Of a DNA stretch of 46,715 bases, positions 37,611-46,598 are shown one piece after another. Source of the DNA: Bdellovibrionales bacterium (GTDB lineage Bacteria; Bdellovibrionota; FAC87; UBA2466; JACKAF01); assembly GCA_020435295.1 (NCBI GenBank), contig JAGQZV010000005.1, positions 1 through 46,715 of the forward strand. Reading direction: 5' to 3'. Each line of letters starts with the position of its first letter. The first letter of the stretch is position 1. The translations under genes were made by a program, and so were the position numbers. A model generated the notes under the pieces. That model saw nothing but the letters and a program-made list of their open reading frames with translations, was not told the DNA's origin and searched no databases.

Positions 37611-38720
37611 ATGAGGGCTTTTGTACTGTTGTGTCTGATCAGTGTCGTGTCCGTCCCTTTGTACGCGGAAGACAGCTTTCCAGCACCCGCCTTGGGCACC
37701 GAGAAAAAAACGAGCAAAGCGCCGGTGGATACCCCCGACGTTCCTTATATCGCTTCTCTGGATACTTACGGCAGCGACCGCATTAGTGAACCGGTAGTTC
37801 GCAAATATTTAGGAAAAGAACTGGATGAGTGGCTAAAGAAAGGGGTAACGGGAGATCCGTCCGCCGTCGCCCTGCAAAAAAGCATCACAAAAAAGCTAAA
37901 CGACAAATTCAAGTTCGAGTTTATCCAATGGTCCATCATGCAGTACCTGCAACCCGGGGACTTAGCCATCCGCGTAACTCTGGACGTCGTTGAGCCACAG
38001 GACAAAAAACGAAGGATGCCCTTTCTGCCGGCACCGACGGAGTCCCCTGCCGATCCAGCTGGACTTGTCAAAAAATGGCAGGAATACCAGGCCACCGCAT
38101 TGGAACTTGGAAACAAGGGAGAATTAGACTCCGTGGAGATTAAATGTCCCGGAGCATTACATTGTCTCTTTGGCCACATGCACCCGAAGCTTAAACCGTT
38201 CGGAGAATACTTCGCTCGCGAAGTAAATCGTAACTTAGCGCCACTAACTGCCGTTTTGCAGAAGGATAAGAACGGGGACAACCGTGGAGCTGCCGCCTTT
38301 CTGATGGCGTATTACAAGGATGGTGCGAAGGTAGTGGATCTCCTAGTCGATCGCATCCGAGATCCTGATTCTCTGGTGCGCAACAACGCCCTACGGGTAC
38401 TTGGTGACATTGCCGAGTTTCAGCCAAACCTCAAGATCCCCGTTAAGCCCGTAGCGGAAGCTTTAGACTTCCCCCTAGTAACGGATCGGTCCAAGGCTCT
38501 TTTCGTCCTCTACGCCCTTGCTGAAGGTGACGAGCAAGCGCAGAAGGTGGCAACAGAACACGCCAAAGCTTTGCTCCAGTTGCTCCGATCGGAACAACCC
38601 AACCAGTCGGGCGTGGCTTACGCCATCCTGCGCCGCATCTCTGGGAAGGCCTTCGCTCCCACGGAATTCGACAAGTGGAACGGCTGGTACAATCGACTGC
38701 CAGCCCAGCAGAAGAAGTAG
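37611..38720 (+). CDS. Secreted protein with HEAT-like repeats
   Basis: This 369-residue protein has a Sec signal (MRAFVLLCLISVVSVPLYAED, probable cleavage after YA). The middle region is lysine-rich and contains an uncharacterised stretch with CPGALHCLFGHMHPKLK. The C-terminal third shows helical repeats, AAAFLMAYYKDGAKVVDLLV and LVRNNALRVLGDIAE, like HEAT repeats, and AYAILRRISGKAFAP near the end. It is probably periplasmic and a binding scaffold; no enzyme motif is seen. TTAAAAT lies 7-13 bases before the ATG with no Shine-Dalgarno sequence, so transcription may begin at the start codon. It precedes the heme operon in the same direction. Confidence 0.7.
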   Translation: MRAFVLLCLISVVSVPLYAEDSFPAPALGTEKKTSKAPVDTPDVPYIASLDTYGSDRISEPVVRKYLGKELDEWLKKGVTGDPSAVALQKSITKKLNDKFKFEFIQWSIMQYLQPGDLAIRVTLDVVEPQDKKRRMPFLPAPTESPADPAGLVKKWQEYQATALELGNKGELDSVEIKCPGALHCLFGHMHPKLKPFGEYFAREVNRNLAPLTAVLQKDKNGDNRGAAAFLMAYYKDGAKVVDLLVDRIRDPDSLVRNNALRVLGDIAEFQPNLKIPVKPVAEALDFPLVTDRSKALFVLYALAEGDEQAQKVATEHAKALLQLLRSEQPNQSGVAYAILRRISGKAFAPTEFDKWNGWYNRLPAQQKK

Positions 38721-38752: not shown

Positions 38753-38769
38753 GTGACATTCTCGTGACA
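38753..38769 (+). promoter_or_regulatory. Tandem GTGACA direct repeat (11-bp period), candidate OmpR-family operator of the heme operon
   Basis: GTGACA occurs at 38753-38758 and again at 38764-38769 with five bases between, so equivalent bases lie 11 bp apart, one helical turn. Winged-helix OmpR/PhoB-family regulators commonly bind such tandem repeats. The second copy also serves as the possible -35 box of hemA. The operon encodes an OmpR-family regulator, which makes this a candidate site for it. Inferred from sequence only. Confidence 0.45.
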
Positions 38770-38794
38770 CATCACACCCAGGTTTGGTTATATT
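38764..38794 (+). promoter_or_regulatory. Putative hemA promoter, possibly leaderless
   Basis: GTGACA (38764-38769) as the -35 box and TATATT (38789-38794) or TTATAT (38788-38793) as the -10 box are spaced 18-19 bases apart. The -10 box ends about seven bases before the ATG at 38801, where a transcription start would be expected. Only GGGG precedes the ATG, too close for a normal ribosome-binding site, so hemA may be read from a leaderless transcript. Confidence 0.4.
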
Positions 38795-38800
38795 GGGGCC

Positions 38801-40015
38801 ATGCCGATCCACGCTTGGGGAACAGATTTTAACCGCAGCGACCCGGAGTTCAGAAAACACCTCTTTCTGGCAGATGATTCACGTGCGAGCCGTATCCGCG
38901 ACATTCTTAGCCTCGGCTTTCGCGACCTGTATTATCTACATACCTGCAACCGCGTGGAGTTCTACACTACTGCTCGCAACCACTTCGAAGATAGCCGGCC
39001 CTTGTGGCTCTCGTTGCTTCGCTATCTGGGACTCCCTGAGCAGAGCTTCTACAACGGTTATTCCCTAGAGGGAAAGTCCGCTGTTCGGCATCTGGTGCGT
39101 GTCGCCTGCTCACTGGAATCGATGGTGGTGGGCGAGCCGCAGATCAACGGCCAGCTTAAAAACGCTCTCGCTTGGACGTTGGACCAAGACCTCCCCGTTG
39201 GCGCTCCTTTGCAGCGGGCGCTTCAACTCGCGTTTCAGACGGCGAAAGAAGTTCGCAACATCACGGGAATCGGAGAAAAGCCGCTGTCAGTCGCAAATCT
39301 AGGACTTCAGCGCTTCCGATCGTTAGAGGTCGAAAAAACGGCGGAATCGGTAGCTGTTGTCGGACGCAGCTCGATCAATCGAATCGTTATCCGGTGGCTA
39401 AAGGAAAATCGGCCTAGCGCCCAAATACTCTGGGTAAACCGGAATCCGGAAGCGCTCGCGCAGTACGAAGAAAGTGAAGGGCTTGAATGTGTTGGTCTAG
39501 ACACGTTCTTAGAAGCCCCGAAGACCTTCGACTATCTTTTCACCGCAACATCTAGCCCGAACCCCATTTTTGGGCACGAGTTTTTCAACCGGATTTCCGG
39601 CGGCCCCGCAGTGTTATTTGATTTCGCACAGCCTTCCGACGTGTGCGCGGAGTGCGTCCCGTCACACGTTAAACTCTTGTCGATGGACGATTTGGCTCGT
39701 GAGGCCGACGAAAATAGGAAGCTTCGATTGACTGAAATCCTGCGCGCAGAACCTATCATCGAGCAGGCCCTTCACCGGTTTTACCTAGAACAAAAAGAAA
39801 CCCCCCTTCTCAGGGACTTCAGCTCCGTCGAACCGCAGGTCTTGCGCTCCCTATCTGAAGAATTGCAGGGCATGGAAAAATGGGTCCCAGCCGAAGCGTT
39901 TCCAAAATTTGAGAAGTGGGCTCGCTCCCTAGTCAAAAAGCATATCCACCTTTCGCGCGAACACTTGAGAGGCATCCTTCGAGAAGCGGCTGCGGCGGAA
40001 AGTCAGAGTTTTTAG
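38801..40015 (+). CDS. hemA: Glutamyl-tRNA reductase HemA
   Basis: The 404-residue enzyme contains HTCNRVEFY with the catalytic Cys49, and CSLESMVVGEPQINGQLKNA, the family signature. A NADPH-binding domain follows (VAVVGRSSINRIVIRWL), then a dimerisation helix. HemA reduces glutamyl-tRNA to glutamate-1-semialdehyde, the first committed step of the C5 route. The glycine loop is GRSSIN rather than the common GAGxMG, a small deviation that should be compared with relatives. It heads the operon hemA-hemC-hemD-hemB-hemL. hemC follows after four bases. Confidence 0.95.
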   Translation: MPIHAWGTDFNRSDPEFRKHLFLADDSRASRIRDILSLGFRDLYYLHTCNRVEFYTTARNHFEDSRPLWLSLLRYLGLPEQSFYNGYSLEGKSAVRHLVRVACSLESMVVGEPQINGQLKNALAWTLDQDLPVGAPLQRALQLAFQTAKEVRNITGIGEKPLSVANLGLQRFRSLEVEKTAESVAVVGRSSINRIVIRWLKENRPSAQILWVNRNPEALAQYEESEGLECVGLDTFLEAPKTFDYLFTATSSPNPIFGHEFFNRISGGPAVLFDFAQPSDVCAECVPSHVKLLSMDDLAREADENRKLRLTEILRAEPIIEQALHRFYLEQKETPLLRDFSSVEPQVLRSLSEELQGMEKWVPAEAFPKFEKWARSLVKKHIHLSREHLRGILREAAAAESQSF

Positions 40016-40019
40016 TCGC

Positions 40020-40943
40020 ATGCGTTACCGCTTGGGAACTCGAGAAAGCGATCTCGCTCTTACCCAATCCCGATGGGTCCAAAGCAAGTTGGAAGCACTC
40101 GGTGTGCTCTGCGACTTGGTTCCTATTGTCAGCCGAGGCGACCGGGATCAAAAAACGGCGCTGTATGAAGCAGAGGCGAGCGCCCCTGGCTGGTTCACCA
40201 AACAGCTCGAAATCGCCCTGCAAGATGGGAGTATCGATCTGGCGGTCCACTCATTAAAGGACCTCCCCACGCTCCAGCCACCGGGGCAAACGCTTGCCTG
40301 CATCCCGGAGAGGAGAAACCCTGCCGATTGTCTACTTGTGCACCCAGACGCCTGGGAAGAAGGGGGAACTCTGCCGCTTCGCAAAGGCGCACGCGTGGGA
40401 ACCAGCTCCCTGCGCCGGGAAGCTCTTTTGCTATGTGAGCGTGGGGATCTAGATGTGCAACCCATCCGAGGGAATCTGCCCACCCGCCTGGCTAAACTTC
40501 GCAAGCGGGAATTCGATGCCGTCGTATTTGCTGAAGCGGGCTTAGAGCGGCTGGCAGCTGATACCAAAGACCTGCGACACGTATCGCTAGCGCCCACTCG
40601 GTTCGTTCCGGCGCCGGGGCAGGGCGCGCTTGGCGTGGAAGTCCGCGAGGACGCCCCCGCCGTGCTTCAAGCTGCGCTGGGGCACCTGCATAACGCCCAA
40701 GCGGCCGCAGAAACCCGCCTGGAGCGGCACATCTTGCGTGAACTCGAGGGCGGTTGCACACTGCCCCTGGGTGTTCTTTGCACCCATCAGGGAGCCGTGC
40801 TGAAAATCATGGCTTTTCTTGGGAAAAAGCTGGAAAACCAAGCTGGACACAGCTGGACGGGCTTCCTGCGTTTTGACATTTCAGGGTCGGATGAACAATA
40901 TCTTGTCGCTGAAACGCTGAAGTATTTTCGCAAGGGAACATGA
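40020..40943 (+). CDS. hemC: Porphobilinogen deaminase HemC
   Basis: The 307-residue protein opens with YRLGTRESDLALTQSRWV. It has the catalytic Asp in HSLKDLPT (Asp81), GTSSLRREALLL, PIRGNLPTRLAKL and APGQGALGVEVR. Cys246 in ELEGGCTLPLG binds the dipyrromethane cofactor. HemC polymerises four porphobilinogen molecules to hydroxymethylbilane. It overlaps hemD by 4 bp (ATGA). The usual family length is about 310 residues, so the gene is complete. Confidence 0.96.
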   Translation: MRYRLGTRESDLALTQSRWVQSKLEALGVLCDLVPIVSRGDRDQKTALYEAEASAPGWFTKQLEIALQDGSIDLAVHSLKDLPTLQPPGQTLACIPERRNPADCLLVHPDAWEEGGTLPLRKGARVGTSSLRREALLLCERGDLDVQPIRGNLPTRLAKLRKREFDAVVFAEAGLERLAADTKDLRHVSLAPTRFVPAPGQGALGVEVREDAPAVLQAALGHLHNAQAAAETRLERHILRELEGGCTLPLGVLCTHQGAVLKIMAFLGKKLENQAGHSWTGFLRFDISGSDEQYLVAETLKYFRKGT

Positions 40944-41668
40944 GCGAACCGCTAAAAATCTTAGTCACCGGGGAGGACACGCTACGAGATCGTCTGCCTA
41001 TGACAGTGGGGGATCGCGCTTTGGAGTGGACCATTCTTCCGGTCCTGGAATTCGAGCGCTTGCCGGTCCCGCCCGAGATTTTTGAGTCCCTTCACGCGTA
41101 CGCTTGGATCGTGTTCACCAGTCCCCGAACGGTTCAGTTTTGGAGTGAGGCTTTGCTGGAAGCGGGAACCGAAATGGGGCCGGAGACTCGGATCGCCTGC
41201 ATGGGACCACGCACAGCGAAAGTCGCCTCCAATGACGGGTACACTCCGGACCTCGTCCCAGAAAGACCTGGCACTGAGGGTCTTGTGCACGCTTTCGGAG
41301 CGCTTCGGCTGAGCGGGCTTAAGATCCTGATCCCCGAAGCAGAAAAAGGGCGTGGCGAGCTCAAAGCGCCGCTCGCGGCGAAAGGTGCCCTTGTCACGAC
41401 CGTCCCGCTGTACAGGACTCGCGTGCGCAGCGACCTAGAACGGGAGCCACGCACCCCGATCGCTTCCATAGACTACTTTGTTTTCACTAGTCCGAGCTCA
41501 GTACGAGCGGTGGTTTCCCACTTTGACGTGGATCGCACTCGCCCCGTTGCCTGTCTCGGTGAGTATACGGCGGCAGCGCTGCGCACAGAAGGTTTTGCAA
41601 ACCCCTATTGCTTGCCGGGAGCCAAATTCGAAAACATCCGAGACTGGATTGGAGAAACTAGATGCTAA
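40940..41668 (+). CDS. hemD: Uroporphyrinogen-III synthase HemD
   Basis: The 242-residue protein is weakly conserved, as HemD always is. It shows WIVFTSPRTVQFW in the first half and YFVFTSPSSVRAVVSHF in the second, the paired signature of the two-domain fold. CMGPRTAKVASNDGYTPDLVPE and ACLGEYTAAALRTEGF are typical as well. HemD closes hydroxymethylbilane with inversion of ring D to give uroporphyrinogen III. Its place between hemC and hemB supports the call. The 3' end overlaps hemB by 7 bp. Confidence 0.88.
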   Translation: MSEPLKILVTGEDTLRDRLPMTVGDRALEWTILPVLEFERLPVPPEIFESLHAYAWIVFTSPRTVQFWSEALLEAGTEMGPETRIACMGPRTAKVASNDGYTPDLVPERPGTEGLVHAFGALRLSGLKILIPEAEKGRGELKAPLAAKGALVTTVPLYRTRVRSDLEREPRTPIASIDYFVFTSPSSVRAVVSHFDVDRTRPVACLGEYTAAALRTEGFANPYCLPGAKFENIRDWIGETRC

Positions 41669-42651
41669 AGCCATTCGTCGACAGGCCCCGCCGCTTGCGG
41701 CGCAGCGCTCTCATCCGAGACATGGTTCACGAAGTTGAGCTGAACCTGTCTCAACTCGTTCAACCGTACTTCCTTTCGACTCAGAATAATCCGGAGGCAA
41801 AAGAAACCATTTCCGAGTTTTCCGGAGTTTACCGGTGGGGTATCGACTCGTTGTCCAGAGAAATGGAATCCCAAATCGACCGTGGACTTTCTCGCTTTCT
41901 TCTGTTTGGCAGCACCGATGACAAAGACGCCACCGGTAGCGCGGCCGTTTCGCAAAATGCGAAGGTCGCCGAAGCAATCACAAAACTAAAGAAACGCTTT
42001 GGCGACGCGAGCCTCTTATTCTCAGACATCTGCCTTTGCCCATATACGAATCACGGCCATTGCGGGATCGTCCGCGGGGAGAGCATTGAAAACGATGCCT
42101 CTATCGATCTCCTTTGTCGGATGGCACTCACACATGCCGAGGCGGGGGTTGACTTCGTAGCCCCTTCCGACATGATGGACGGACGGGTAGGTGCTATTCG
42201 TCAGATCTTAGATCAAAAACAGTTCTCCGATGTGGGTATTCTCGCGTACACGGCCAAGTACAAATCCAATTATTATGGTCCGTTTCGAGAAGCTTTGGAT
42301 TCCGCGCCTCAGAAAGGCGATCGCTCCACCTACCAAATGGACTACCGCAACCAGCGTGAAGCCCTGAGGGAGCTTCAGCTGGATTTGGCTGAAGGCGCCG
42401 ATCTTGTTATGGTCAAGCCAGCCCTTGCGTATCTAGACATTCTGTCACTTTTTGCCAAACAGAGTACGGTCCCCGTCGCCGCCTACAGCGTCAGTGGCGA
42501 ATACCAAATGGTCCAGCTTGCAGCAAAAGCTGGTATCGCCGATGTAAAGAGTCTAGCTCTGGAAAATCTTACTGCTATTCGCCGCGCCGGCGCGGACATT
42601 ATCCTCACCTATTTTGCGGCTGAGATCGCTGAGAAAGGCTGGCTACGATGA
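41662..42651 (+). CDS. hemB: Delta-aminolevulinic acid dehydratase HemB (zinc type)
   Basis: The 329-residue enzyme has the two active-site lysines Lys199 (YTAKYKSNYYGPFREA) and Lys252 (VMVKPA). Cysteines 124, 126 and 134 in CLCPYTNHGHC match the zinc-binding type of catalytic site rather than the magnesium type with aspartates. HemB joins two aminolevulinate molecules to porphobilinogen. SGEYQMV and RAGADIILTYFA close the barrel. It overlaps hemD by 7 bp and hemL by 4 bp. Confidence 0.96.
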   Translation: MLKPFVDRPRRLRRSALIRDMVHEVELNLSQLVQPYFLSTQNNPEAKETISEFSGVYRWGIDSLSREMESQIDRGLSRFLLFGSTDDKDATGSAAVSQNAKVAEAITKLKKRFGDASLLFSDICLCPYTNHGHCGIVRGESIENDASIDLLCRMALTHAEAGVDFVAPSDMMDGRVGAIRQILDQKQFSDVGILAYTAKYKSNYYGPFREALDSAPQKGDRSTYQMDYRNQREALRELQLDLAEGADLVMVKPALAYLDILSLFAKQSTVPVAAYSVSGEYQMVQLAAKAGIADVKSLALENLTAIRRAGADIILTYFAAEIAEKGWLR

Positions 42652-43910
42652 CGCATTCGGAACAATGGTACCAACGCGCACTGAAGGTAACTCCTGGAGG
42701 TGTCCACTCGCCGGTACGTAGTCTAAAGAACGTAGACGCGCAACCGATCTTTTTCTCTTATGGAGACGGGGCGTACCTCCACGACGTGGACGGCAAGAGT
42801 TATGTGGACTTTTGCCTGTCCTTTGGCCCACACATACTCGGGCACTGCCCGGAAGTCGTAACGCGCGCTTTGCGCGAACAAGTCGGAAAAGCGCTCAGCT
42901 TCGGAGCTTGTCACCCACTCGAAGTAGAACTTTCCGAGCGGATTCTACAAAGCTACCCGTTCCTGCAAAAGGTCCGCTTGGTCAACAGTGGAACGGAAGC
43001 CGTGATGACCGCTATCCGCACCGCACGCGCGTTTACCAGAAAGTCTAAGATCATCAAGTTCGACGGCTGTTACCACGGACACAGCGATAGCTTGTTGTCA
43101 AAAGCGGGCAGCGGAGTCGCCGCGCTCAATGAAGCCAGTTCTCTAGGTGTCACCCCGTCGCAAGTGAGCGACACGTTGACCGCCACATTCGACGATCTAT
43201 CTGAATTTGAGGCTCTGCTGGAGAAATGGAAAGGCGACGTCGCCGCCGTACTTCTCGAACCCGTCCCCGCCAATAACGGCCTACACGTTCCACGCCGCAA
43301 ACACCTTCAGGCTATGATGGAACTCGCGCACCGCCACCAAGCGCTCGTTATTTTTGACGAGGTCATCACGGGATTTCGGCTCAGCCTTTCCGGTGCAAGT
43401 GGCTACTTTGACCTCACACCCGATCTTGTGACTCTCGGGAAGATTATCGGCGGAGGCCTCCCGCTCGCCGCCGTCGCCGGACGCACGGAAATCCTCGATC
43501 AGCTGGCTCCACTTGGTGGAGCGTACCAGGCCGGGACGCTCTCGGGAAACCCACTCGCCACAGCCGCCGGGTGTGCCATCTTGACTGAGCTGGCGCAAAA
43601 CCCGCCGTATCAAAAACTCGAATTGGCGACCCAAGATTTTGCCGACGAACTCGAGCGGTTAGTGCAAAAGTTCGACATGCGCGTTCCTAGAATCGCGTCA
43701 ATGTTTTGGTTGCAGGCATCAGAGGGAGAGGCCTTTCCACCACAAATTGGCGACGCGCAGCGAGCGCTCTACGGAAAAATCTTCCGCAAGGCCCTCAAAG
43801 TCGGCGTGTACCTACCTCCCTCACCTTACGAGGTCGGTTTTCTTTCAACAGCCCATTTGGGAAGACCGTTGGAGCAGACGCTGGAAAAGTTGGAGTCATG
43901 CTTGAAGTAA
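42648..43910 (+). CDS. hemL: Glutamate-1-semialdehyde 2,1-aminomutase HemL
   Basis: This 420-residue fold-type I PLP enzyme has SPVRSLKNV near the start, NSGTEAVMTAIRTARAFT, FDGCYHGHSDSLL, FDEVITGFR and Lys265 in LGKIIGGGLP as the Schiff-base lysine. It converts glutamate-1-semialdehyde to 5-aminolevulinate. Together with hemA it confirms the C5 pathway. The first bases overlap hemB as ATGA. The end overlaps the histidine kinase gene by 13 bp, linking heme and signalling genes in one transcript. Confidence 0.96.
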   Translation: MTHSEQWYQRALKVTPGGVHSPVRSLKNVDAQPIFFSYGDGAYLHDVDGKSYVDFCLSFGPHILGHCPEVVTRALREQVGKALSFGACHPLEVELSERILQSYPFLQKVRLVNSGTEAVMTAIRTARAFTRKSKIIKFDGCYHGHSDSLLSKAGSGVAALNEASSLGVTPSQVSDTLTATFDDLSEFEALLEKWKGDVAAVLLEPVPANNGLHVPRRKHLQAMMELAHRHQALVIFDEVITGFRLSLSGASGYFDLTPDLVTLGKIIGGGLPLAAVAGRTEILDQLAPLGGAYQAGTLSGNPLATAAGCAILTELAQNPPYQKLELATQDFADELERLVQKFDMRVPRIASMFWLQASEGEAFPPQIGDAQRALYGKIFRKALKVGVYLPPSPYEVGFLSTAHLGRPLEQTLEKLESCLK

Positions 43911-44878
43911 AACACAAGCGATGGTTACGCCTGTTTGCCTTGGTCGCGGCACTAGTCCTCGCTCAAGTAGTCTGGTGGAACGTTGTGTTCATGAATAGCG
44001 TCGGTAGTATCGAAGGGCTACGCTCGGAAATACTTGGGTACCGCAACCAACTCGGTTTATCCTCAGAGACCACTCCAACGTTGATCGCGGAATCCGCCCA
44101 CAAGCAACGTACGATGTTTGTCTCCGAGTCTATCTTTTTTGTGATGCTGACGTGTCTGGCGATTTATCTACTCTACCGTGCTCTGAAAGCGGAAGAAAGA
44201 TCGCGAGAAATCCAAAAGAATTTTATTGAGATCGTAAGCCATGAATCAAAAACGCCGCTCACTGCACTCAAGCTCCGTCTGGAGTCACTTCAGGAGTCCA
44301 GCAACTCCGAAGAGACCAAGCGCGAAGCCCATTTGTCGTTGGACGAAGTCCGCCGCCTGACATCGCTGTTTGACAAGATCATGAATTTGAATCGCTTTGA
44401 AAGGCGCGCCTTTTCATTCGAGTCCATCAACCTTTCTGCCCTGGTGGAATCTGTGGCCGCGCGGGTGGAACCGATGCTTCGCGCCAAGTCCATTCAGCTC
44501 GAGACCGATTTGGACCCCAAAGCATTGGTCAACGGAGATGCAGACAGTTTACAAAATTCTATCCAAAGTTTGGTGGAGAATTCGATTCTCTACAACGACA
44601 AAACGGAAAAGAAGATTCGTATCTCCGTCCAACGAGATCCGGGCGGTACTACAGTATTGGATATCGATGACAACGGACCGGGAATTCCGGCCCAGGAAAG
44701 CCCACTTATTTTCGAACGCTTTTACCGCGGCCGAGCCGGGCGTCGGGTTCCAGGGACTGGGCTTGGGTTATTCACCGCAAAGTTTATTGTAGAAGCACAC
44801 GCGGGATCTTTAAAACTCGTTCACTCCGGCCTTGGAGGCACCCATTTTCAGATAGAGCTACCCCGGGGGAGCGCATGA
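43898..44878 (+). CDS. Sensor histidine kinase embedded in the heme operon
   Basis: The 326-residue membrane kinase has a first span at about 10-31, a short periplasmic loop of some 45 residues, and a second span at about 78-95. The H-box IVSHESKTPL carries His115; a Ser replaces the usual Leu before KTPL. ENSILYND is the N-box, DIDDNGPGIP the G1 box and GTGLGL the G2 box. No HAMP or PAS domain is seen, so the signal must come through the small loop or the spans. I chose ATG 43898, which overlaps the hemL stop and has GGAG upstream; a longer frame from 43706 runs back only through hemL. It should phosphorylate the regulator encoded next. Confidence 0.92.
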   Translation: MLEVKHKRWLRLFALVAALVLAQVVWWNVVFMNSVGSIEGLRSEILGYRNQLGLSSETTPTLIAESAHKQRTMFVSESIFFVMLTCLAIYLLYRALKAEERSREIQKNFIEIVSHESKTPLTALKLRLESLQESSNSEETKREAHLSLDEVRRLTSLFDKIMNLNRFERRAFSFESINLSALVESVAARVEPMLRAKSIQLETDLDPKALVNGDADSLQNSIQSLVENSILYNDKTEKKIRISVQRDPGGTTVLDIDDNGPGIPAQESPLIFERFYRGRAGRRVPGTGLGLFTAKFIVEAHAGSLKLVHSGLGGTHFQIELPRGSA

Positions 44879-45573
44879 AGGCTCTGATTTGCTTGGTTGA
44901 GGACGAGCCCACCATTTCCAAGTTTGTAGCAGATCGTCTGGCCCGCGAAGGGTACCAAGTTTCGGCCTTCCGATCCGCTGAGGAAGCGATCGCCAGTGAG
45001 CGAATTTGGGACCTCTATATATTGGATGTTATGCTCGAGGGCGATCTTTCAGGGCTGCAGCTCTGCGCCCACCTTAGAGAGCACGACCCCAATCTTCCTA
45101 TTTTGATGCTGTCAGCACTCGCTGAGGCAAACCACCGTATTGAGGGGCTGCGCATCGGGGCCGATGACTATCTTACTAAACCATTCGAGATGGAGGAGCT
45201 ACTTCTGCGTGTGTCAGCAATGTTGCGACGCCGCGGCTGGTACAGCACACTCCCTGACGATACCGCTGTATACCGTTGGAACGACAAATGGGTGGATTTC
45301 AGAAAATTCGAGGCGGGTCGAGGGCGCAAAAAATTCGAACTCACTCAGAAAGAGTGTATGCTCATGAAGCTCCTCATTGAAAAAAAGGGCGAAGTAGTCA
45401 CCCGCAGCGAAATCCTAGACAAGGTGTGGGGGTACAATGTATTCCCGAGTTCGCGAACCGTGGACAACTTCATCCTACGGTTAAGGAAATATTTCGAATC
45501 GGATCCCAGTGCGCCGAGCAACATCCACGCTGTTCGTGGACTGGGATACAAGTTTACACCGGAGGCCACATGA
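44875..45573 (+). CDS. OmpR/PhoB-family response regulator
   Basis: The 232-residue protein comprises a receiver domain with acidic residues in VEDEP, the phosphorylation site Asp51 in YILDVML, and Lys102 in YLTKPFEM. A winged-helix DNA-binding domain follows (FELTQKECMLMKLLIEKKGEVVTRSEILDKVWG, RTVDNFILRLRKYFE, IHAVRGLGYKF). It overlaps the kinase gene by 4 bp (ATGA) and hemE by 4 bp (ATGA). Being between hemL and hemE, it is probably a regulator of heme synthesis. The direct repeat upstream of hemA is a candidate binding site. Confidence 0.93.
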   Translation: MKALICLVEDEPTISKFVADRLAREGYQVSAFRSAEEAIASERIWDLYILDVMLEGDLSGLQLCAHLREHDPNLPILMLSALAEANHRIEGLRIGADDYLTKPFEMEELLLRVSAMLRRRGWYSTLPDDTAVYRWNDKWVDFRKFEAGRGRKKFELTQKECMLMKLLIEKKGEVVTRSEILDKVWGYNVFPSSRTVDNFILRLRKYFESDPSAPSNIHAVRGLGYKFTPEAT

Positions 45574-46598
45574 AACCCGATGTTATTCGACACCTGGAAG
45601 GCGAGTCCCTAGGACGCTTTCCAGTCTGGATGATGCGCCAGGCAGGTCGGTATCTCCAAACTTACCGAGACATTCGCAAGGAGAATTCCTTTTGGGAGAT
45701 GGTCAGCCGCCCGGAAGTCGCCGCGCGGGTTAGCTTGCTCCCGCTCGAAGTCCTCGACGTAGATGCCGTAATCTTTTTCTCCGATATCCTAACCCTGCCC
45801 TACGGGCTGGGCGTTCCCGTGGAACTACACGAAGGCGTGGGTCCGGTCCTTCCCGCACCACTGCGATCGGAAAACGACTTTGCCACATTCGAGTCCTTTG
45901 ATCCGAGCACTCACACAAAGTTCGTTGGAGACGCTCTGACAAGAATTAGAGAGGGCCTGCACCCATCTAAAGCACTATTTGGGTTTGCCGGTGCCCCCTG
46001 GACGGTCGCAAGCTACCTCATCGAAGGGCGATCGAGCCGCGAGTTCCGGCATTTGCTTGGGTGGATGCAAAAGGATCCACAAGGCCTTGCGCGCGTTCTC
46101 CAAACACTGGCAGAAGCGACAACACGGTACCTGGAGTACCAGATCCGCTCCGGTGCCCATGCGGTGCAGCTCTTTGACACCTGGGCCAGCGTGCTGCCCC
46201 TCAATTTTTATGAGCAATACTATTTGCCCATTGTGAACGGCGTTTTTGAAAAGTTGGCGCCACTTGGGGTGCCGAGGATCTACTATTTCAAGCAGGCAGC
46301 ACACCTGGCACCTGCGGTTGCTAAGCTGCGAGCAGACGTACTCAGTGTAGACAGTAACCTTACACTCCCTGAGTGGTCTCAGCTCTTTGAAGGCCGCTTC
46401 TCGCTGCAAGGCAACCTGGATCCGACAACACTGCTTCTGGATGAGGCCACGGTGCGCGCAAAAACGCGCGAACTAGTGCAGCAAGCCGGCACACTGGCAA
46501 AGCCTGCGATACTCAACTTAGGTCATGGGATTTTGAAAGACGTGCCGGTGGCAAATGCAAAGGCATTTGTCGACGAGGCTCGCCAATTGTGGGTCTAG
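45570..46598 (+). CDS. hemE: Uroporphyrinogen decarboxylase HemE
   Basis: The 342-residue enzyme has the N-terminal signature PVWMMRQAGRYLQTYR, DAVIFFSDILTLPYGLG with the substrate-binding aspartate, GFAGAPWTVASYLIEG and QLFDTWAS. NLGHGILKDVP near the end carries the conserved His. It removes four carboxyl groups from uroporphyrinogen III to give coproporphyrinogen III. The ATG at 45570 overlaps the regulator stop and has GGAGG upstream, so the longer frame from 45426 is rejected. Confidence 0.96.
   Translation: MKPDVIRHLEGESLGRFPVWMMRQAGRYLQTYRDIRKENSFWEMVSRPEVAARVSLLPLEVLDVDAVIFFSDILTLPYGLGVPVELHEGVGPVLPAPLRSENDFATFESFDPSTHTKFVGDALTRIREGLHPSKALFGFAGAPWTVASYLIEGRSSREFRHLLGWMQKDPQGLARVLQTLAEATTRYLEYQIRSGAHAVQLFDTWASVLPLNFYEQYYLPIVNGVFEKLAPLGVPRIYYFKQAAHLAPAVAKLRADVLSVDSNLTLPEWSQLFEGRFSLQGNLDPTTLLLDEATVRAKTRELVQQAGTLAKPAILNLGHGILKDVPVANAKAFVDEARQLWV

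Follow-up and report, generated by a model that had tools for sequence, protein, structure and literature searches.

The question raised by this locus is what purpose is served by a short direct repeat that lies just in front of a heme biosynthesis operon. The window, i.e. the whole stretch of 46,715 nucleotides that was analysed, contains the repeat GTGACATTCTCGTGACA (GTGACA-N5-GTGACA) as an exact match at 38753-38769 on the + strand, with half-sites at 38753-38758 and 38764-38769. Counted from the hemA ATG at 38801, the repeat spans positions -48 to -32, with 31 nt between repeat and ATG, and is the sole exact match to GTGACA-N5-GTGACA within the window. This bears out the description in an earlier note on this DNA, two perfect 6-bp copies with an 11-bp period upstream of hemA. 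Shuffling of the 80-nt leader gives a chance of 1.4% for a perfect 6-bp direct repeat with period 11 and of 20% for one with any period from 7 to 22, and as a single sequence the window repeat is on its own no more than suggestive. Judged from the comparisons given here, the repeat is very probably the operator, or hem-box, of the HemR-type response regulator of the OmpR/PhoB family that is encoded in the same operon.

The operon has the order hemA-hemC-hemD-hemB-hemL-kinase-regulator-hemE (38801-46598), and successive genes overlap by a few bases at every junction but that of hemA and hemC. The repeat, the promoter element and the genes are as follows.

38753-38769, + strand: hem-box-like direct repeat, exact, kept at hemA across the order and the phylum
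38789-38794, + strand: predicted -10 element TATATT, separated from the box by 19 nt and from the ATG by 6 nt
38801-40015, + strand: hemA, glutamyl-tRNA reductase (Pfam GlutR_N 102 bits, over the cut-off), predicted leaderless
40020-40943, + strand: hemC, porphobilinogen deaminase (Pfam Porphobil_deam 216 bits)
40940-41668, + strand: hemD, uroporphyrinogen-III synthase (Pfam HEM4 135 bits), overlaps hemC
41662-42651, + strand: hemB, delta-aminolevulinic acid dehydratase (Pfam ALAD 431 bits), overlaps hemD
42648-43910, + strand: hemL, glutamate-1-semialdehyde aminomutase (NCBIfam NF000818 500 bits, cut-off 398; Aminotran_3), overlaps hemB
43898-44878, + strand: HemK-like sensor histidine kinase (HisKA and HATPase_c over the cut-off), overlaps hemL
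44875-45573, + strand: HemR-like response regulator of the OmpR/PhoB family (Response_reg and Trans_reg_C over the cut-off), overlaps the kinase gene
45570-46598, + strand: hemE, uroporphyrinogen decarboxylase (Pfam URO-D 336 bits), overlaps the regulator gene

The kinase has two hydrophobic stretches around about 45 residues, a topology assigned by eye.

The repeat is conserved before hemA in related genomes. In a sample of 15 genomes of the order the pattern RTGACAN5GTGACA had 18 matches in 13 genomes, and 13 of these matches, one per genome, were situated just upstream of hemA. The wider pattern RTGACAN5RTGACA had 21 matches in 14 of the genomes, again 13 of them at hemA, and the same pattern read backwards had 3. 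Among the order relatives that were read, the flanks have diverged around an unchanged box. A scan of the window's own genome for further copies gave one exact match, the one at hemA. A larger regulon was considered by inspection of the 8 matches outside hemA in the 15 genomes (3 for the reversed control), which sit inside genes, beside unrelated genes or near no recognised gene; no recurring target was found, and therefore no wider regulon is claimed. One of the order genomes (G007, L242 1158-1174) has a perfect box about 97 nt upstream of a gene for a CxxCH-rich, multiheme-like protein, which is possibly a further target or a chance match.

The box and the regulator occur together across the phylum. 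A search of 191 genomes gave a hemA match in 156, and 54 hem loci were read, namely those of every one of the 14 order relatives and, from the remaining 143, 40 picked to span families. In each locus the interval between 200 nt upstream and 100 nt downstream of the hemA frame start was scanned, and its best RTGACAN5RTGACA site was scored. The 40 loci with the regulator in the operon had a perfect box in 28 cases, one mismatch in 7, two in 1 and three in 4. At a limit of one mismatch, a box was accordingly present in 35 of the 40 operons with the kinase-regulator pair vs none of the 6 complete loci without the pair, where the best site had 4 or 5 mismatches (Fisher p = 4.9e-5, a value that treats the genomes as independent and overstates this independence because they are related). 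The other eight loci were truncated by contig ends and left out of this comparison; four of them had a perfect box and four had none. In all, boxes with at most one mismatch were found at 39 of the 54 loci (35 with the regulator, 4 of unknown regulator status) vs 0.175 expected from shuffling. It is this conservation, in 13 of 15 order genomes and 39 of 54 phylum loci, that places the repeat above chance.

The most telling case of co-occurrence is a genome within the order (G009, L187) in which hemL is followed by hemE without the kinase and regulator genes in between, and the box is gone. The best regulator elsewhere in this genome has 37% identity, which is the level of a paralogue, and no orthologue was found there. 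The G009 locus retains TATATT before hemA. The exceptions among the operons with a regulator are L188, with two mismatches, and L237-L240 of family f9, with three mismatches, where the downstream half-site alone is intact. In G011 the regulator is intact beside a two-mismatch box. A TGA had been flagged in this gene, and a broken regulator was considered and rejected, as the frame runs unbroken to a TGA stop at its proper end; the degenerate G011 box is therefore not due to a dead regulator. G014 has a box, a search of its assembly gave no regulator orthologue, and its contig ends in hemL; this genome therefore neither helps nor refutes. In family f6 (L216-L220) hemA and hemB point away from each other on either side of the box, and one box could therefore serve both directions.

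The position of the box relative to the promoter was compared in an alignment of 39 boxes with at most one mismatch. The earlier note had placed the second copy over the likely -35 box. Its position holds, since the -35 position, 17 bp upstream of TATATT, falls on the second half-site, but no good -35 hexamer is found there. TANNNT lies exactly 20 nt past the box in 23 of the 39 aligned sites, where chance would give about 1.3 at any one offset, and further sites have it at 19 or 21 nt. The second half-site opens with G in 23 of the aligned sites, with A in 16 and with T in none, although the selection of sites scored a T there as one mismatch and did not exclude it; the half-site is therefore not kept as a plain TTGACA -35 box. 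A sigma-70 -35 element has TTGACA and a spacer of 16-18 bp to the -10 element, whereas here the first T is lacking and the spacer is 19-20. That the repeat is simply a -35 element which happens to be repeated is for these reasons hardly credible: GTGACA does match TTGACA at five of six bases, and a perfect period-11 repeat in the window leader has the 1.4% chance given above, but both half-sites are kept across the phylum while a -35 box does not need the upstream half, and the box is absent where the regulator is absent. In class II activation by PhoB-type proteins the activator overlaps the -35 position, and a regulator bound to the box would sit there in the same way.

An in-frame start codon is found 31-37 nt past the box in 29 of the 39 aligned loci, with start codons assigned by reading frame alone. 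As the start codon follows a few nt after the -10 element, the hemA message is predicted to be leaderless. Each of the 14 order relatives read has, upstream of hemA and in the same orientation, a gene for a HEAT-repeat protein (window 37611-38720), and TAAAAT precedes the start of this gene, also at leaderless distance.

The complement of the box reads TGTCA-N6-TGTCA, which the E. coli Pho box has as its core, and the regulator has PhoB among its best NCBIfam matches. The Pho box is a tandem 11-bp direct repeat with a TGTCA core, bound by PhoB over the -35 position, and the window box has the same period and, on the opposite strand, the same core pentamer. Its orientation relative to the gene is, however, reversed, and its target is hemA. 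The PhoB equivalog model TIGR02154 gave the window regulator 163.1 bits, below the cut-off of 296.2. When 41 hem-operon regulators, among them that of the window, were aligned with 17 paralogues of the order, the hem-operon regulators shared the recognition-helix signature R-T/S-V/I-D-N, the window regulator being of the RT[VI]DN type. N198 was present in all 41 while the 17 paralogues all had T or V there; PhoB differs from the hem-operon regulators in having V at the matching position of its recognition helix. The site tracks the hem-operon regulator, and with its single exact match at hemA the own genome showed no recurrence at phosphate-gene promoters at the exact level. A Pho box bound by PhoB is consequently a very improbable reading. 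The suggestion of the earlier note that the geometry is that of an OmpR/PhoB-family site, with such a regulator in the operon, is supported by the Pfam domains and by the box tracking the regulator, and can be sharpened: the repeat would be a HemR-type hem-box rather than a site for a generic OmpR/PhoB pair.

The hem-box motif was reportedly defined by Morero et al. in 2014. In Leptospira the hem-box of HemR is TGACA[N6]TGACA according to PMC11426443, where HemR is described as OmpR/PhoB-like and as the proposed activator of hemA (in L. biflexa) and repressor of hmuO. The same paper presents HemKR as a singular form of heme control in this genus, which is without a canonical Fur. Pathogenic Leptospira, e.g. 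L. interrogans, have the two-component genes in linkage with hem genes (PMC2266917). The window system resembles HemKR in several respects: the box equals the Leptospira motif and lies in the hemA promoter, the regulator is of the OmpR/PhoB family with a partner kinase carrying HisKA and HATPase_c, kinase and regulator genes share a locus with hem genes, which is also the case in L. interrogans, and the target is hemA. It differs in that the window genome belongs to another phylum than Leptospira and in that no second target such as hmuO or exbB/D was seen in its own genome at the exact-match level. With the sequence features of HemKR, the system is likely to work like it, and we infer orthology of the regulator with Leptospira HemR.

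Bdellovibrio bacteriovorus, a likely relative of the window lineage, is stated in PMC2266917, as 'data not shown', to have a two-component pair in linkage with hem genes. The kinase-regulator pair is a likeness to the window, while the available passages of that source contain no operator, which is here located and aligned. A term search of the main text of PMC3627812 for a transcription start of Bdellovibrio hemA gave neither heme nor hemA. The HrrSA and ChrSA systems of corynebacteria are alike in being two-component heme responses that touch hemA; their regulators are of the NarL/LuxR type, not of the OmpR/PhoB type. In the open-licence literature searched, no description of a hem-box outside Leptospira was found.

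The direction of control was considered from the promoter layout and from the Leptospira data. The regulator might bind the same box but mainly repress hemA through occlusion of the -35 region. In favour of this, the box overlies the -35 position, Leptospira HemR is reported to repress hmuO through the same motif (a reference cited in PMC11426443), and in the hemKR deletion of L. biflexa hemA was up about 2.5-fold under iron deficit (PMC11426443, of 2024). Under standard conditions hemA was not significantly changed in this deletion (same paper), and activation may therefore not be the whole story. Against repression, there is no good -35 hexamer to block, the second half-site does not start with T in any of the 39 sites with at most one mismatch, and the gap of 19-20 nt from box to -10 element suits an activator. 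In the Leptospira mutants of a 2008 study the expression of hemA, hemE and hemL was down 2-10 fold (PMC2266917). A mainly repressing regulator is thus unlikely, with perhaps one chance in several, and activation is the preferred reading.

Under activation, phosphorylated HemR would bind the box as a dimer in head-to-tail arrangement, with one subunit per half-site and both on one face of the DNA. Bound HemR would cover the -35 position and recruit RNA polymerase in the class II manner, with the -10 element 19-20 nt downstream. Because hemK and hemR lie inside the controlled operon, an autoregulatory loop would pass through both, and the autoregulation of heme synthesis suggested by the earlier note gains support from the place of the regulator gene. 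In Leptospira ALA triggers the phosphatase activity of HemK (PMC11426443). By analogy, ALA or a later porphyrin may switch HemK to phosphatase; HemR would then be dephosphorylated and hemA transcription would go down. The net effect would be end-product control of tetrapyrrole synthesis at the first committed enzyme.

Relatives of the regulator in Bacteroidota, mostly with 45-50% identity, have the same helix RTIDNF, and three of them adjoin hemL (L084, L104 and L120). In 60 genomes of the order of L104, 29 had hemA, and a box with at most one mismatch was present upstream of hemA in 13 of the 29 (L289 and L300 included) vs about 0.1 by shuffling. All 13 box-bearing genomes have the regulator, and the box is found in none of the 6 hemA genomes without it. 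The 16 hemA genomes lacking a box comprise 10 with the regulator and 6 without (Fisher p 0.02, where relatedness again makes the value overstate independence), so that 10 of the 23 hemA genomes with the regulator are without a box at this threshold. A perfect box in a Saprospiraceae MAG (L247 1501-1517) lies shortly upstream of an oxidoreductase-like gene, and is possibly a further target or due to chance. In the fetched flanks of the regulator relatives from Geobacter, Calditrichota and Ignavibacteria (L092, L093, L095 and L097) no box with at most one mismatch was found outside genes.

The order of L094 has a different pattern. Among 58 genomes hemA was found in 1 and the regulator in 57. 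Of 29 readable loci, 6, which are the nearest relatives, have a box in reverse orientation just after the regulator gene. Where read (L249-L254, L094 and L099), this box precedes genes for a T9SS-sorted protein and a TonB-dependent receptor, and in the genome of L094 the box near the TonB-receptor operon is the sole exact box. One of two T9SS-sorted proteins gave an HmuY match of 21.5 bits, below the cut-off of 27. The box before HmuY-like and TonB-receptor genes in Bacteroidota is, on these sequences, a lead to a target of the regulator. A wider reading is held only tentatively, at somewhat less than even chances: HemR and its box would form a cross-phylum switch of heme supply, acting at hemA through one and the same box and recognition helix in Spirochaetota, Bdellovibrionota and Bacteroidota, with a leaderless hemA and fixed spacing of box, -10 element and start in Bdellovibrionota, and with the box moved to an HmuY-like/TonB-receptor operon where hemA was lost and the regulator kept, i.e. 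from synthesis to uptake.

The HemKR/hem-box switch is already known in Leptospira, and the present finding extends this known kind of system to a much wider range. As far as the open-licence literature searched shows, the operator outside Leptospira, the depth of its conservation, the fixed promoter geometry and the extension to Bacteroidota are new. Should the box prove to be a HemR operator, the same feedback circuit at the first step of heme synthesis would be common to Bdellovibrio-type and uncultured bacteria of a phylum other than that of Leptospira and to some Bacteroidota, and it could be studied in cultivable, non-pathogenic relatives, with the natural loss of both pair and box in G009 as a ready comparison.
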